Shown piece after piece: positions 23,974 to 32,700 of a stretch of DNA of 35,009 nt. The position numbers and the translations under genes were made by a program. Within the stretch, counting starts at the first letter, position 1. The number at the start of each line of letters is the position of its first letter. Where the stretch lies: positions 80,026-115,034 of the forward strand of contig PBJD01000014.1 of assembly GCA_002720635.1 (NCBI GenBank). The letters run 5' to 3'. The notes under the pieces are model-generated. The model ran no database searches. It was not told where the DNA came from and saw only the letters and a program-made list of their open reading frames with translations. This DNA is from Flavobacteriales bacterium (GTDB lineage: Bacteria > Bacteroidota > Bacteroidia > Flavobacteriales_C > GCA-002722245).

Positions 23974-26382
23974 TTATAGTTTAAATACTGCAGAAACCCA
24001 GTATACACGGCCTTCCGATGGAATTATTCCAGGTCCGGGATAAGAGTTGGCCCTTTGAGTAAAGTAACTCTTGTTGGTTACATTGTTTACAGACAATTGT
24101 AACGTAATATTTTTGAAATTATAGCCACCTTTGACATCAATTACATAAAAAGAAGGTATTAACCCATATACGCCATTCATACTTTCTATTGCATTTGTTG
24201 CTTCAGAAAATTGTGTTGTTTGAAAATTAATTAAGCCAGAAAAAAGCCATTTTTTGTATTCGTGGGTTAAGGAAGATTTAAGAGTTAACCAAGGTACCAT
24301 TTCAACTCGATTACCATAAACGATCGCAGCCGTATCAATATACTTCGCATAGTTGCTGGTAATATTTGTCATCAGATTTAGTTTGTGAATGGTGTCGTTT
24401 AGTCCGGTTAGCTCTCCCAGGTTAATCCAGTTGGTAAGCTCTGCTCCAATAGTTCTGGAGGCAGAGATATTTGTTCTGTATTGATAGGTGTCAAATGTTA
24501 GATCATCGGTTTGCCAAATTAAGCCAATTCGGTTGTCATAGTGAAGCATATAGCCGGTTACACTTAAAAATGCTGTTTTGTTCCATCCCTTACTATATGT
24601 TATATCAGCCGTATATCCTTTTTCATCTTGAATGTTGGGATCAACCCGCAAACTGGGAACCACAATATTTATATCACTGAAGTTTACCGATCTGAAATTT
24701 TTTGAAATATTAGCAATCCACTTGCCATTTTTTGCAACATTGTAGGTAAGTCCTGTTCCGAAAAGGTGTATGTCTCTGTTGCTAACGAAATCTGTTGGTG
24801 AATTTGTTATTAAAAGAGTATCATTAGCATTGTTAATTACATATTTATTGTAGTATCCGTCTGTTTCAGTACTTATATATTCATAACGATAACCGGGCGT
24901 TAAAAAAAACTTTTTTGTCAGGAAAAGTGTGTTTTCAAAAAATAGTGATGCATTCGCACTGGGAAATTGATATTGGGAATGTTCCGGAACTTCAGGTATC
25001 GAAAAATCAGCGTCGTAGTTTTTTGTGCCTAATGCCTGAGAGGTTTGAGCCCAACCTTTATAAAGTCTCAGGCCGCTTATTAATGCAGCATTTTTATTTT
25101 TAATTGTATAACGCTTGATCCACCGTGTCTCGTTACCTAAATTTTCAAAATTACCGGCTATTATTGCTCTGTCTCCTAACGGGTCAGTCCGTTGAGGATT
25201 TTCCATGTAACCAACAGAATTTCTGGAGGCATTTACATAAAATGTTTTAGAATTAATCCACGAATTGGAGTTGAATTTATAATGCGCAATTAAAGCAGCA
25301 ATATTCCAGTCTATGCTGAACCAGTTTCTTTCTCTAAAACTTTGTTGTGGATTATTATAGAATTGCTTGTCTGTTAATCCACCTGCCTGTTGAACATTAT
25401 AATAATATTTAGTTAATTGAAATTTTAAATTTAATTTTTTATTGATTTGACAGGAGATACTTGAGTATCCTGTATGCGAATTGTAACTTGAATTGTCTCT
25501 CCACCCATCCCCGATTTTATAATGGTAAAAAGAATATGTTTTTATGTTTTTACTTTTTGTAGCAATACTATTAAATGTATGGAATTGTTTATAGCTTCCG
25601 TATTTATTATTGGAAATCAGTTCAAATTTCTTTTTTGGATTTGATGGACCATCTTTTAAAATGAAATTGATCATTCCTCCAAATTGAGGTCCAAATTGCA
25701 ATGAGGCTGCGCCTCTTAAAATACTTATTTCCCGAATTGATTCACTTGAAGGGGTGTAATAAGTCTCTGGGTATCCAAGTGCATCTGCACTGATTTCATA
25801 GCCGTTTTGGCGGGTGTTGTAATGTGCTGTTCTTTTTGGATTTAATCCTCTTCCACCAATACCGAGTTGAAGTCCTGCACCATCATATTCAATAATATTT
25901 ACCGGAGCATCAATTGTTCTGTTTAATGAAGAAGATGTTCCTTTTTCAGCATCTTGTTTGATAACAATTTTATTTTTTCCAATAGAAATTTGATCCTCTG
26001 AGATTTCTTTACCTCGGCTTAAAGGCGCACTTACATTTATTTCAACATTATCAAGTTCAGCTGCTTTTGCAAATAAAATAACAGTAATAGAAGTGATTTT
26101 TTCTTTAGTAACCGTCACTTTTTGTAAGGACTCTCGATAATTTTTATGTGAAACAAGAACTGTATAAATTCCGGCAGGAAGGTTGGGAAACTTGAACTTT
26201 CCATTATGGTTTGATATAATAGTACTTTCTGTTTCTTCAATTAATATTTTTGCATTGTGTATTGGACTGTAGTCAGTATTTAATATAACTCCTTTTAAAC
26301 CCGAAGCAGTTATAGTCTCTGAGAGTACTAAACTGAAGAACAGGAGAAATATAAAATTTATTTTAGAAGAGACTCCAAACAT
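23974..26382 (-). CDS. TonB-dependent receptor, FecA-like, with N-terminal carboxypeptidase-regulatory-like domain
   Basis: The 802-aa protein is an outer-membrane gated transporter. A signal peptide (about 1-27) leads into a CarboxypepD-regulatory-like domain (about 28-110, GLKGVILNTDYSPIHNAKI). The plug domain contains GIGGRGLNPKRTAHYNTRQ, ADALGYPETYYTPSSE and EISILRGAASLQFGPQFGG, which resemble ferric-dicitrate receptors of the FecA type. The remainder is the 22-strand barrel region, ending in the typical VYWVSAVFKL. Substrate is probably an iron chelate by family, but no FecR/sigma regulators or siderophore genes lie nearby. No SusD partner follows, so it is not a SusC-type glycan importer. 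The GH20 gene 103 bp downstream may be co-transcribed. Confidence 0.9.
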   Translation of the reverse strand: MFGVSSKINFIFLLFFSLVLSETITASGLKGVILNTDYSPIHNAKILIEETESTIISNHNGKFKFPNLPAGIYTVLVSHKNYRESLQKVTVTKEKITSITVILFAKAAELDNVEINVSAPLSRGKEISEDQISIGKNKIVIKQDAEKGTSSSLNRTIDAPVNIIEYDGAGLQLGIGGRGLNPKRTAHYNTRQNGYEISADALGYPETYYTPSSESIREISILRGAASLQFGPQFGGMINFILKDGPSNPKKKFELISNNKYGSYKQFHTFNSIATKSKNIKTYSFYHYKIGDGWRDNSSYNSHTGYSSISCQINKKLNLKFQLTKYYYNVQQAGGLTDKQFYNNPQQSFRERNWFSIDWNIAALIAHYKFNSNSWINSKTFYVNASRNSVGYMENPQRTDPLGDRAIIAGNFENLGNETRWIKRYTIKNKNAALISGLRLYKGWAQTSQALGTKNYDADFSIPEVPEHSQYQFPSANASLFFENTLFLTKKFFLTPGYRYEYISTETDGYYNKYVINNANDTLLITNSPTDFVSNRDIHLFGTGLTYNVAKNGKWIANISKNFRSVNFSDINIVVPSLRVDPNIQDEKGYTADITYSKGWNKTAFLSVTGYMLHYDNRIGLIWQTDDLTFDTYQYRTNISASRTIGAELTNWINLGELTGLNDTIHKLNLMTNITSNYAKYIDTAAIVYGNRVEMVPWLTLKSSLTHEYKKWLFSGLINFQTTQFSEATNAIESMNGVYGLIPSFYVIDVKGGYNFKNITLQLSVNNVTNKSYFTQRANSYPGPGIIPSEGRVYWVSAVFKL

Positions 26383-27861: not shown

Positions 27862-28752
27862 GTGTATAAGCTCTTGCAAAAATATAAAAAGCATACCGGA
27901 CCTCTTTATGCCGTTGCATATTCAAAACAGCATGATTTACTTTTTACCGGAGGTTCTGATAAGGTTGTTGCCACCTGGGATTTAGATAGGGGTGAGAATA
28001 CTCCATTATCGATTAAGACAGATTCTGCAGTATTAAATTTTCAATTATTAAATAATGAAAAACACCTTTTTATAGGTTTGTTCAATGGTGATTTCCATAT
28101 AATTGACATTGATACTCGAAAAGAAATCAGCTTTTTTAAAAGGCATAAATTGGGTGTGTTTAGTTCGTGTTATTTAAGTGATCGCAATATGCTTTTTGTA
28201 GGGGCAGGAGATGGTACTCTATCAATTTGGGATACAAAAAGTTTTCAACTTTTAGCAAGCCATCAATTGGGCAAAGGTAAGATAAGAGCCATTCAATCCG
28301 TGGGTAATGATGTTTTTATTGCCAATTCACAAGGTCAAATCTTTACAATTAACTTGTTTGCCATTGAAGAATATTCCTTGTTTACAACCATTAATCATCC
28401 TATTTTTTGTTTAAGTAGCTTTTCATCCAACAACTCCCTATTGATTGGAGACAAGAATGCACATTTAACAGAAATTGAGATTGAAAGTAAACAAGTTCTT
28501 AAATCTATACCTGCTCATAATTGGCCAATTTACAGGATAGAATGGTTAAACTCAAAAGAATTTGTAACCTGCAGTAGAGATAAAATTTTAAAAATTTGGG
28601 ATGCTACTTCAATGAAGGTCAAACAAAGATTGTCTTTTCCTGAATTTCAAGGCCATATAAATTCTGTGAATAACCTGGTTTCAATATCTTCTACTCAGTC
28701 TATTGTTTCTGTTGGGGACGATAAGCAAATTTGCCTTTGGAGGAAAAGCTAA
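27862..28752 (+). CDS. WD40 repeat protein
   Basis: The 296-aa cytoplasmic protein is built almost entirely of WD40 repeats. Repeat-type motifs are visible at LFTGGSDKVVATWDLD, LFVGAGDGTLSIWDTK, FVTCSRDKILKIWDAT and VSVGDDKQICLWRKS, with weaker units between them, which is about enough for one seven-bladed propeller. No catalytic or membrane domain is attached. Such proteins act as binding platforms, and the partner is unknown. The start is a GTG at 27862: the first repeat begins within a few residues, so little is missing, and the -7 element four bases upstream supports it. It lies 54 bp after the pseudouridine synthase gene and converges on serC. Confidence 0.87.
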   Translation: MYKLLQKYKKHTGPLYAVAYSKQHDLLFTGGSDKVVATWDLDRGENTPLSIKTDSAVLNFQLLNNEKHLFIGLFNGDFHIIDIDTRKEISFFKRHKLGVFSSCYLSDRNMLFVGAGDGTLSIWDTKSFQLLASHQLGKGKIRAIQSVGNDVFIANSQGQIFTINLFAIEEYSLFTTINHPIFCLSSFSSNNSLLIGDKNAHLTEIEIESKQVLKSIPAHNWPIYRIEWLNSKEFVTCSRDKILKIWDATSMKVKQRLSFPEFQGHINSVNNLVSISSTQSIVSVGDDKQICLWRKS

Positions 28753-29837: not shown

Positions 29838-29976
29838 TTGAAAAAGTTTTCGCAAAGAAATGATATTTATTGGAAAAGCCCAATATGATTTTGATCTAAT
29901 TTAGAAATTAAGCTCATTCACTCAATTAATGTTATGTTATTGCAGAATCACGGCGTTCTTAAATGAAGTCTAAAAT

Positions 29977-30000
29977 AATTTTTAGGCGAGTCTAAAAATT
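29977..30000. repeat. Inverted repeat overlapping the middle AGTCTAAA copy
   Basis: The arms AATTTTTAG (29977-29985) and CTAAAAATT (29992-30000) are exact reverse complements separated by six bases. The right arm includes most of the second AGTCTAAA copy. It may be a dimeric protein site within the repeat array, or a weak hairpin; the arms are AT-rich, so significance is moderate. Confidence 0.7.
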
Positions 30001-30010: not shown

Positions 30011-30028
30011 TAGTCTAAACTGTTGGGT

Positions 30029-32269
30029 GTGCAAAAGCTAATCTTTTTTTTGCTTATTTGTATTTCTTTTTTGGGATATGCTAAATCCGGAAATGTTTAT
30101 GGAGTTGTCAAGAGTCAAAAAGGTCCTTTAGCTTTTGTTAATGTTTTCATAGAGGGAACAAGTCATGGGGTTTTTACAGATCAAAATGGAGAATTTGTTA
30201 TAAAGTCTGTTCCATATGGACAATATGTTTTAAGAGCTCAACTTTTGGGTTATACAAATTATAGTGCACCATTGACAGTGAATTCAATTTCTGTTGAAGT
30301 AAATCCTGTTCTGGAGGAATCTGATAATCAAATTGATGAAGTTGTTGTTTCTGGAACCTTGAAATCAATAAGCAAATCAAATAGTCCGGTTCCTGTTGAG
30401 GTATATAGTTCAGAGTTTTTTAAGAAAAATCCAACCACGTCGATTTTTGAATCCATGGCTAATATAAATGGTGTTCGTCCTCAATTGAATTGTAATATTT
30501 GCAACACGGGAGATATTCATATCAATGGACTTGAAGGCCCCTACACCATGGTGCTTATTGATGGGATGCCTATTGTAAGTGGTTTATCAACCGTATATGG
30601 TTTAATGGGGATTCCTCAATCTTTAATTAATCGAGTTGAGGTTGTTAAAGGTCCTTCATCTACCTTGTATGGTTCTGAAGCTGTTGGTGGAATAATCAAT
30701 ATCATAACAAAATCGCCACAAAGCGCTCCACAATTTAGTGCTGATGTTTTTGGATCAACATGGGGTGAAATAAATTCTGATATTGGAGTTAAGTTCAAAG
30801 TAAAAAAAGCATATAGTTTAGTAGGTATAAATCATTTTAATTATCAAAATAAAGTAGATAATAATGATGATGGAATTACGGATTTAGCTCTTCAGGATAG
30901 AATTTCGGTGTTTAATAAATGGAGTTTTGATAGAAAGGATAATCGTTTATTTACAATTGCCGGACGCTATTTATATGAAGACAGATGGGGTGGGGAGCTT
31001 AACTGGACACCTGAATTCAGAGGTGGGGATTCCATTTATGGAGAATCAATCTATACGAATAGATGGGAATTGTTTGGTGTGTATCAATTACCACTTAAAG
31101 AAAAGGTGAATTTTTCTTTTTCTGCAAACAGTCATGATCAAAATTCAGTCTATGGAACAACAGAATATATTGGGAATCAGGACGTTTTGTTTGGTCAATT
31201 AACCTATTTTAAAACTATAAAAAAACATGATTTTACTGCAGGAATGGCTTATCGATACACCTATTACGATGACAACTCCATAGCTACTGTTCAGCCGAGT
31301 CAAATTCATTTACCGGGTGTTTTTATGCAGGATCAAATTCAGTTTTCAAAACAATCTACGTTACTATTAGGGGGAAGGTATGATTACAATACAAATCACG
31401 GGAACGTATTTTCACCAAGAGCCAATTACAAATGGATGTCCAAAAGCAGGAAAACAATTTTAAGATTTACTGCGGGTAATGGTTTTAGAGTAGTTAATAT
31501 ATTTACAGAAGAGCATCAGGCTTTTACGGGGACACGGGAATTAATTATTCAGGAAGAATTAAAGCCCGAGAAATCGTGGAATGGGAATGTTAATTATGTC
31601 AGGAAGTTTTTGTTAAAAAACGATGTTTTTCTGAGTTTTGATTTTACCGGGTTTTATACCCATTTCAGCAATCAGATTTTACCTGATTACAGCACTGATC
31701 CAAATGCAATAATATATGATAACCTGGATGGATATTCTGTTTCTAAAGGGCTTTCCCTGAATACGGATTTTTCATTTCCTAATGGACTTAATCTACTTAT
31801 GGGGGCTACCCTTATGGATGTTTCTTTTACAGAGCAGGAGGTAACAGAGCGTCAGATTTTAACCGAGAGATTTACAGCCACATGGGGGATCTCATACAAA
31901 CTCAAAAAGAAGGGACTGACATTTGATTACACCGGCAATTTATATAGTCCTATGTTATTGCCATTATTAGGTGATAAAGATCCTCGTAATCCCGAATCAC
32001 CATATTGGAGTCTTCAAAACTTTCAAGTGACCAAAAAAATTAAGAAAAGCTGGGAGATGTATTGTTCTGTAAAAAACATTTTGAATTTTACTCCTCCTGC
32101 AAATAGTATCTGGGGGGCTCATGATCCTTTTGAGAAGAGAAACAATTCAGAAACTCCTGGTATTGATGATAAAGATCCCGATGATCTGGGATTTGATCCA
32201 GCATATATGTTCGCCCCAAATCAAGGAATTAGAGGGAATTTTGGAATAAGATACACATTTAAAAAATGA
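30029..32269 (+). CDS. TonB-dependent receptor with CxxC motif in the plug domain
   Basis: This is an outer-membrane gated transporter. GTG 30029 gives 746 aa with a compact signal peptide (MQKLIFFLLICISFLGYA); an in-frame TTG at 30023 is the alternative. A CarboxypepD-regulatory-like domain (about 20-95) precedes a TonB-box-like DEVVVSG and the plug, with LIDGMPIVSG and VEVVKGPSSTLYGSEAVGG, then the barrel ending FGIRYTFKK. Unusual is NCNICNTGDIHING in the plug, with cysteines at about 155 and 158; plug cysteines are uncommon in TonB receptors. The stop overlaps the start of an exported thioredoxin gene (ATGA), tying the two functionally. Metal, perhaps copper, or heme is a possible ligand, but this is inference. 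Confidence 0.9.
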   Translation: MQKLIFFLLICISFLGYAKSGNVYGVVKSQKGPLAFVNVFIEGTSHGVFTDQNGEFVIKSVPYGQYVLRAQLLGYTNYSAPLTVNSISVEVNPVLEESDNQIDEVVVSGTLKSISKSNSPVPVEVYSSEFFKKNPTTSIFESMANINGVRPQLNCNICNTGDIHINGLEGPYTMVLIDGMPIVSGLSTVYGLMGIPQSLINRVEVVKGPSSTLYGSEAVGGIINIITKSPQSAPQFSADVFGSTWGEINSDIGVKFKVKKAYSLVGINHFNYQNKVDNNDDGITDLALQDRISVFNKWSFDRKDNRLFTIAGRYLYEDRWGGELNWTPEFRGGDSIYGESIYTNRWELFGVYQLPLKEKVNFSFSANSHDQNSVYGTTEYIGNQDVLFGQLTYFKTIKKHDFTAGMAYRYTYYDDNSIATVQPSQIHLPGVFMQDQIQFSKQSTLLLGGRYDYNTNHGNVFSPRANYKWMSKSRKTILRFTAGNGFRVVNIFTEEHQAFTGTRELIIQEELKPEKSWNGNVNYVRKFLLKNDVFLSFDFTGFYTHFSNQILPDYSTDPNAIIYDNLDGYSVSKGLSLNTDFSFPNGLNLLMGATLMDVSFTEQEVTERQILTERFTATWGISYKLKKKGLTFDYTGNLYSPMLLPLLGDKDPRNPESPYWSLQNFQVTKKIKKSWEMYCSVKNILNFTPPANSIWGAHDPFEKRNNSETPGIDDKDPDDLGFDPAYMFAPNQGIRGNFGIRYTFKK

Positions 32270-32700
32270 AAAAGTTAGCAATTTTATTATTGTTTGGCAT
32301 ATCTCTGAATAATTCAGCTCAGGATATTAACTGGGTTACTTTTGATAGATTGCCTGGTTTAATTCAAAGTGAACCAAAGCCAGTTATGATTTTTATTCAT
32401 ACGGATTGGTGTAAATATTGTTTAATGCAAGAAAAAATAACGTTTAAAGATTCTTCTATTGTAAATGAATTAAATGAAGACTACTATTGTATAAAGCTGA
32501 ATGCTGAATCCAGTGAGCCGATTTATTTTTTGAATAGAATATACACGAAGAAAGGAAGTAATCATTCTTTGTCATGGGTTTTAGGTGCTCAAAATAACGA
32601 GCTTATATTTCCAACTACAGTTGTTCTTTCTCCAAAATTTCAAATTACAAACAGGTGGGTTGGTTATCTTTCAAAAGAACAGCTTGGAGTTATTAACTGA
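32266..32700 (+). CDS. Exported thioredoxin-family protein
   Basis: The 144-aa protein has a signal peptide (about residues 1-18) and a thioredoxin-like fold with the active site WCKYC, Cys49 and Cys52. After it come a conserved FPTTVVLSP segment containing the family's cis-proline (Phe-Pro-Thr) and a short C-terminal helix. It should work outside the cytoplasm as a disulfide reductase, or as a sensor or carrier of thiol-bound ligands. The start ATG overlaps the receptor stop (ATGA), so the receptor and this protein are made together. It has no membrane anchor besides the signal peptide, and no DsbD-like electron source is adjacent, so how it is kept reduced is not visible. Confidence 0.88.
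   Translation: MKKLAILLLFGISLNNSAQDINWVTFDRLPGLIQSEPKPVMIFIHTDWCKYCLMQEKITFKDSSIVNELNEDYYCIKLNAESSEPIYFLNRIYTKKGSNHSLSWVLGAQNNELIFPTTVVLSPKFQITNRWVGYLSKEQLGVIN

Follow-up and report, generated by a model that had tools for sequence, protein, structure and literature searches.

The window, as the whole 35,009-nucleotide stretch of Flavobacteriales DNA analysed is called here, holds on its forward strand a TonB-dependent receptor gene (30029..32269) directly followed by the gene of an exported thioredoxin-fold protein (32266..32700). The receptor is a protein of 746 aa with an N-terminal CarbopepD_reg_2 domain, a plug bearing a CxxC motif and a TonB-receptor barrel, the Plug (PF07715) and barrel (PF00593) domains both scoring above the Pfam cut-off. 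Its open reading frame extends over 30023-32269, with the TTG at 30023 as alternative start; the GTG at 30029 (M-Q-K-L) is the start favoured by the genus alignment, the sister genome G002 starting with TTG at the same codon. The AF2 model of the receptor (pLDDT 86.6) finds its closest folds in BtuB, Cir and FepA. The stretch NCNICNTGDIHING is found in the protein, and within the plug the motif Cys155-Asn-Ile-Cys158 occupies positions 30491..30502 (Cys155 at 30491-30493, Cys158 at 30500-30502) and is followed by TGDIHING at 30506-30529, so that the TonB receptor with a plug CxxC reported in the preliminary description is confirmed in both motif and domains. In the model, CNIC forms the turn of a plug beta-hairpin, with strands 149-155 and 160-165 on either side. 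The CxxxM motif of OprC/NosA type was also looked for in this plug and is absent from it. Further downstream, an acidic loop D277-x-N279-x-D281-x-x-x-D285 is encoded at 30857..30883 (+); D277, N279, D281 and D285 are invariant in a 60-row alignment of receptors, and DxNxD[NG]FTD types occur among 190 homologues. It is an early barrel loop of dockerin/EF-hand-like pattern, and a likely role is that of an extracellular loop for Ca or a metal.

The thioredoxin-fold protein (144 aa) starts with a signal-like helix without lipobox cysteine, carries TDWCKYC with the active site W48-C-K-Y-C52, and has a cis-proline at position 116, thus presenting the WCxxC and cis-Pro of a thioredoxin fold. W48, C49, C52 and P116 are invariant among 33 receptor-linked thioredoxin proteins. 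Its best structural matches are DsbD-gamma domains, which are reductants, and a DsbD_TM protein, a possible electron source, is encoded in the window genome (G000) and its sisters. The fold and the D-W-C-x-x-C site are shared with the DsbD gamma domain and the Thioredoxin_7 family, from which the window protein differs in being free-standing, secreted, 144 aa long and encoded with a receptor. Stop and start codons of the two genes overlap in an ATGA at 32266..32269, from which translational coupling would be expected; the same -4 overlap is seen in 12 of 60 linked receptor-thioredoxin pairs, most others lying no more than 20 bp apart. Both the overlap and the exported WCKYC protein had been proposed earlier and hold as described.

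Genes flanking the pair (serC-like, WD40, SpoU methylase, transglutaminase-like) are unrelated to it. A second TonB receptor, of siderophore type by NCBIfam similarity, lies at 23974-26382 (-), its 3' end overlapping a beta-hexosaminidase-like ORF; it shows neither a CxxC plug nor a DtxR-type box. A small WD40-repeat protein is encoded within two or three genes of the CxxC receptor in two distantly related genomes (window 27862-28752; L137:5624-6541), which may be coincidence.

Upstream of the receptor, a perfect 7+7 inverted repeat, TTTTTAG-GCGAGT-CTAAAAA (29979..29998, +), is predicted to be a DtxR/MntR-type operator, 0.10 such repeats being expected by chance across the window even when one mismatch is tolerated. 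It is accompanied on the same strand by additional half-sites, AGTCTAAAA (29967..29975) and AGTCTAAA (30012..30019), and comparable half-sites lie ~26 bp after the box in G002 and G003; the dedicated regulatory array mentioned in the preliminary description is therefore real in the sequence. Its core, TTAG-N6-CTAA, is that of the DtxR family, DtxR/IdeR included. It stands ahead of 141 of 160 CxxC receptors, where first-order shuffles predict 1.6, and precedes 159/185 CxxC receptors versus 1/27 other receptors. The box precedes the receptor in all four receptor-bearing genomes of the window's genus, and the mntR operons of the genus share the TTAG-N6-CTAA palindrome (L133:5799, L134:8563, L135:8081). 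A genome-wide scan with TTTAG-N6-CTAAA alone was unspecific, its matches equalling those of a reversed-pattern control, and those of its other matches that were inspected lay inside genes or adjoined unrelated genes.

Neighbouring genes, typed by sequence motif with representatives confirmed by Pfam, place the receptor in a metal context. Of 79 loci with flanking sequence, 57 have a DtxR/MntR-type gene in the vicinity of the receptor, usually divergent, the other neighbours in this set including ZIP (30), NRAMP (7) and FeoB (2). The earlier claim of a defined system is supported, as one that is regulated and concerned with a metal. The mntR gene of the window's genus is located away from the receptor, at the head of a TroABCD-type operon that also encodes a TroA-like binding protein, its ATPase partner and two permeases and is preceded by the same box; no mntR was found in the window's own draft genome (78% complete), and the gene is present in the sisters G002-G004. 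The regulator is a 218-aa DtxR-FeoA protein whose profile scores 158-189 bits against Mn regulators (DR2539-type 5zr4, ScaR, SloR and a relative) and ~82-96 against IdeR/DtxR, favouring the former by 60-90 bits, and the residue corresponding to Cys102 of DtxR is Glu. The profile match, the Glu residue and the transporter context together point to manganese as the best-supported candidate metal, with iron as the main alternative. Copper, the default metal of the preliminary description, is not what the regulator and the inner-membrane partners (ZIP, NRAMP, TroABCD) indicate, which is Mn or Mn/Fe. A copper link through HMA or CusB neighbours was considered and rejected, such neighbours being confined to single genera or loci.

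A scan of genome contigs found at least 589 receptor loci, and 190 distinct homologues from several classes of Bacteroidota, with 32-89% identity to the window receptor, were examined. Both plug cysteines, in the form C[NGSA][VI]C, are kept in all 190, even at 32% identity, which bears out the conserved cysteine pair claimed before, and none of the 190 has a CQNC motif. In the nearest paralogues (~27% identity), D and S replace the two cysteines, as checked at these columns for two of them. A related receptor family of ~27% identity (L023-L037) is also widespread and lacks the DtxR-type box in all but one of its receptors; in L023 and L024, GAKKIQMLGLDG stands where the CxxC would be. Among the structure alignments read, no solved receptor with a CxxC plug was found. 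Of 198 genomes sampled evenly from the class, 70, about a third, encode the CxxC receptor.

The thioredoxin is a less constant companion. The pair occurs in 13 of the 70 receptor genomes of that sample, in which all 12 thioredoxin matches with E <= 1.2e-45 adjoin a receptor and one weaker match is adjacent too. When the 190 receptors were scored for an adjacent thioredoxin, 5 were unscorable, and of the remaining 185 it was found in 60 and not in 125. The linked/unlinked label switches ~20 times on the receptor tree, against a shuffled mean of 51. The window thioredoxin falls in a tree group of 57, all beside a receptor (including L011, whose receptor is cut by the contig end), although the branch joining the whole group is weakly supported (36) and its subgroups are better supported. 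Another class (family code f79) has, next to the receptor, thioredoxins from a separate lineage with WCTYC or WCGWC; at these loci (L283-L286, L296, L297) a MntR-type gene is adjacent in four of six, and in L284/L286 the thioredoxin is grouped with mntR, sometimes in its transcription unit, and not behind the receptor. The partner is thus optional and belongs to at least two lineages, more than one of which was probably recruited to the receptor. The association of a thioredoxin with the receptor is thus supported, the window clade occurring only beside it and the other lineage adjoining it in the second class; an obligate pair is not, as the 125 scorable receptors without an adjacent thioredoxin keep both cysteines. 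Separation of the two genes, which had been named as speaking against the system, is found in one direction: receptors without thioredoxin are common, and this thioredoxin clade is almost never seen without the receptor. Therefore, presence of the window-clade thioredoxin predicts that of the receptor but not the other way round, and, since two thirds of the scorable receptors do without it, the thioredoxin is inessential to the role of the cysteines unless other reductases substitute for it. In one genus (L021, L218, L221) an exported, thiol-rich HMA-like protein (INCDHCKQCESCGGR) is encoded directly downstream of the CxxC receptor, where the thioredoxin gene would otherwise be. A plasmid search for proteobacterial CQNC relatives gave, among the matches listed, identities all below 35% and no CQNC receptor, and the only plasmid thioredoxin match does not adjoin a receptor.

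Regarding the position of the cysteines, the segment G148-G167 of the receptor and G51-G70 of BtuB are equal in length, so that C155 and C158 align on BtuB Gly58 and Gly61. The BtuB hatch loop with these glycines contacts cobalamin and faces outwards, which makes the substrate site on the outward-facing apex, rather than the periplasmic face, the probable location of the plug cysteines. Reduction of the seated plug by the thioredoxin in the periplasm, as the preliminary description envisaged, becomes doubtful because the CxxC aligns with the outward-facing apex of the BtuB/CirA plug. The reductase could then reach its target only ahead of assembly or while the plug is being remodelled by TonB.

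The closest described counterpart is a gene pair of Stenotrophomonas maltophilia, a receptor with a CQNC plug and a thioredoxin-fold protein, which becomes derepressed when mntR is mutated and which 80 nM Mn is enough to silence (PMC13217887, Argueta-Zepeda et al. 2026, May). The thioredoxin is proposed by its authors as the reductase of the CQNC motif, and the CQNC TBDR-pTFP module is reported only from Lysobacterales, Sphingomonadales and Opitutales, Bacteroidota being unmentioned (PMC13217887). Both arrangements consist of a TonB receptor with a plug CxxC followed by the gene of an exported thioredoxin-fold protein; the S. maltophilia module is MntR-regulated and lies near mntR and mntH, while the Bacteroidota side offers a predicted operator and a linked regulator gene. 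Likened here by their described features, the receptor groups differ in motif (CQNC there, C[NGSA][VI]C here), the thioredoxins in active site (CAPC there, WCKYC here), and the Bacteroidota loci further in their common ZIP or TroABCD partners, 218-aa DtxR-FeoA regulator and optional thioredoxin. The core intuition of the preliminary description is thus backed independently by published work on a different phylum, where the metal is Mn and not copper. With known MntR proteins (PgMntR, ScaR, SloR, DR2539) the regulator shares the DtxR family, the C-terminal FeoA/SH3 domain and the predicted control of Mn transporters; unlike them, it appears to control a TonB receptor too, and has Asn, not Asp/Met, at the first metal position. 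The copper receptors OprC and NosA similarly have a plug cysteine near the substrate site, but differ in their CxxxM motif, metal and regulation, and have no CxxC. MnoT of Burkholderia thailandensis reportedly works with TseM, a Mn-binding protein secreted by a T6SS, and is not known to have a CxxC/thioredoxin pair. It is likewise described as a TonB-dependent outer-membrane importer of Mn (PMC13217887, introduction).

Considering all the above, the reading we prefer, with a confidence slightly better than even, is that of a metal-starvation operon for a TonB-dependent importer of Mn2+ (or Mn/Fe), whose CxxC would be kept reduced by the exported DsbD-gamma-like thioredoxin. As we infer the metal, the function of the cysteines and the client and timing of the thioredoxin, a DtxR/MntR-family repressor would leave the operator at 29979-29998 upon Mn (Mn/Fe) starvation, and receptor and thioredoxin would then be produced together. 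The receptor would be an importer dedicated to one kind of divalent transition metal: Mn2+ is the likeliest, as free ion or weak complex, and Mn/Fe is possible. Capture would take place on the outward side, where the plug dithiol would be part of the site or its gate, functional if reduced. TonB would then open the plug and an inner-membrane transporter import the ion, presumably the TroABCD-type ABC transporter in the window's genus and ZIP, NRAMP or a FeoB in relatives. In some lineages the thioredoxin may hold or restore the plug cysteines as dithiol, on the unfolded receptor before insertion or at TonB plug remodelling, these moments being the most plausible because the seated apex faces outward; in lineages without it, general reductases may serve, or oxidation may be no problem in the habitat. 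Several points count against this importer. Cysteine is a rare ligand of Mn2+, which would make direct binding as Mn-thiolate chemically unusual; TroA-type binding proteins and ZIPs carry Zn and Fe too; most scorable receptors keep the cysteines with no thioredoxin next to them; the draft window genome yielded no mntR; and in the closed receptor the apex CxxC would be beyond the reach of a periplasmic enzyme. PgMntR does use a Cys ligand for Mn (PMC4805248).

The i/i+3 spacing of the cysteines at a hairpin turn and their invariance with or without the optional thioredoxin would also suit a structural disulfide that is permanent and gives the apex loop its shape, the thioredoxin then being a folding or quality-control enzyme of the receptor without a role in transport. 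That account we hold to be unlikely, as the thioredoxin at these loci resembles DsbD-gamma rather than DsbA/DsbC and has the DWCxxC site of a reductase type, and stabilising disulfides seldom require a dedicated reductase, though isomerisation could. The thioredoxin might also have another target than the plug, as a regulon member that reduces a different client, or the metal species itself, during Mn starvation and oxidative stress. Its optional character, with 20 gains or losses on the receptor tree, and its place with mntR in L284/L286 fit this idea, which is nonetheless given a minority share of our confidence, considering the tight coupling to the receptor itself (mostly within 20 bp, many by ATGA) and the fact that thioredoxins of separate lineages are linked to this one kind of CxxC receptor.

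With respect to the metal, the presence of FeoB or NRAMP at some loci and a box whose TTAG-N6-CTAA is the DtxR/IdeR core as well could reflect a receptor for ferrous or weakly chelated iron, rather than Mn, under a dual Fe/Mn DtxR protein. PgMntR binds both metals (PMC4805248), and the S. maltophilia locus requires Mn plus Fe limitation (PMC13217887). On the contrary, the regulator profile is closer to Mn regulators, with Glu at the Cys102 position, ZIP/NRAMP/TroABCD partners prevail, and the S. maltophilia reporter is silenced by 80 nM Mn alone (PMC13217887), all of which makes iron specificity improbable. Even less credit is given to the original proposal that the cysteines mediate uptake of soft metals such as Cu or Zn, or of some ligand containing a thiol, with the thioredoxin freeing the cargo. 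The cysteine pair itself, the HMA-like protein replacing the thioredoxin in one genus, a convergent CusB-like gene in L014 and the plug Cys used by the copper receptor OprC speak for it; those HMA/CusB neighbours are the restricted cases already mentioned, typed by eye, and the near-universal signal is the Mn-type regulator with its box.

A wider proposal, put forward as a speculation clearly less likely than not, is that these receptors form a widespread, previously undescribed Bacteroidota class of MntR-controlled TonB Mn importers in which a binding-site dithiol would act as redox gate, uptake proceeding only if the plug CxxC is reduced, and for which exported thioredoxins of different lineages would have been recruited repeatedly, Proteobacteria included, as the switch. 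The literature search found no described Mn TonB receptor of Bacteroidota, nor a description of how manganese crosses their outer membrane. Were the importer reading true, a substrate, a regulator and partners in the inner membrane could be predicted for a large receptor family, and the thiol-dependent receptor/thioredoxin arrangement of Stenotrophomonas would extend to a second phylum. The near-absolute CxxC offers a ready annotation signature for the family, and these receptors make redox chemistry in TonB transport directly testable in a Flavobacterium amenable to genetics; if the redox gate holds, metal import would be coupled to the redox state of the envelope.
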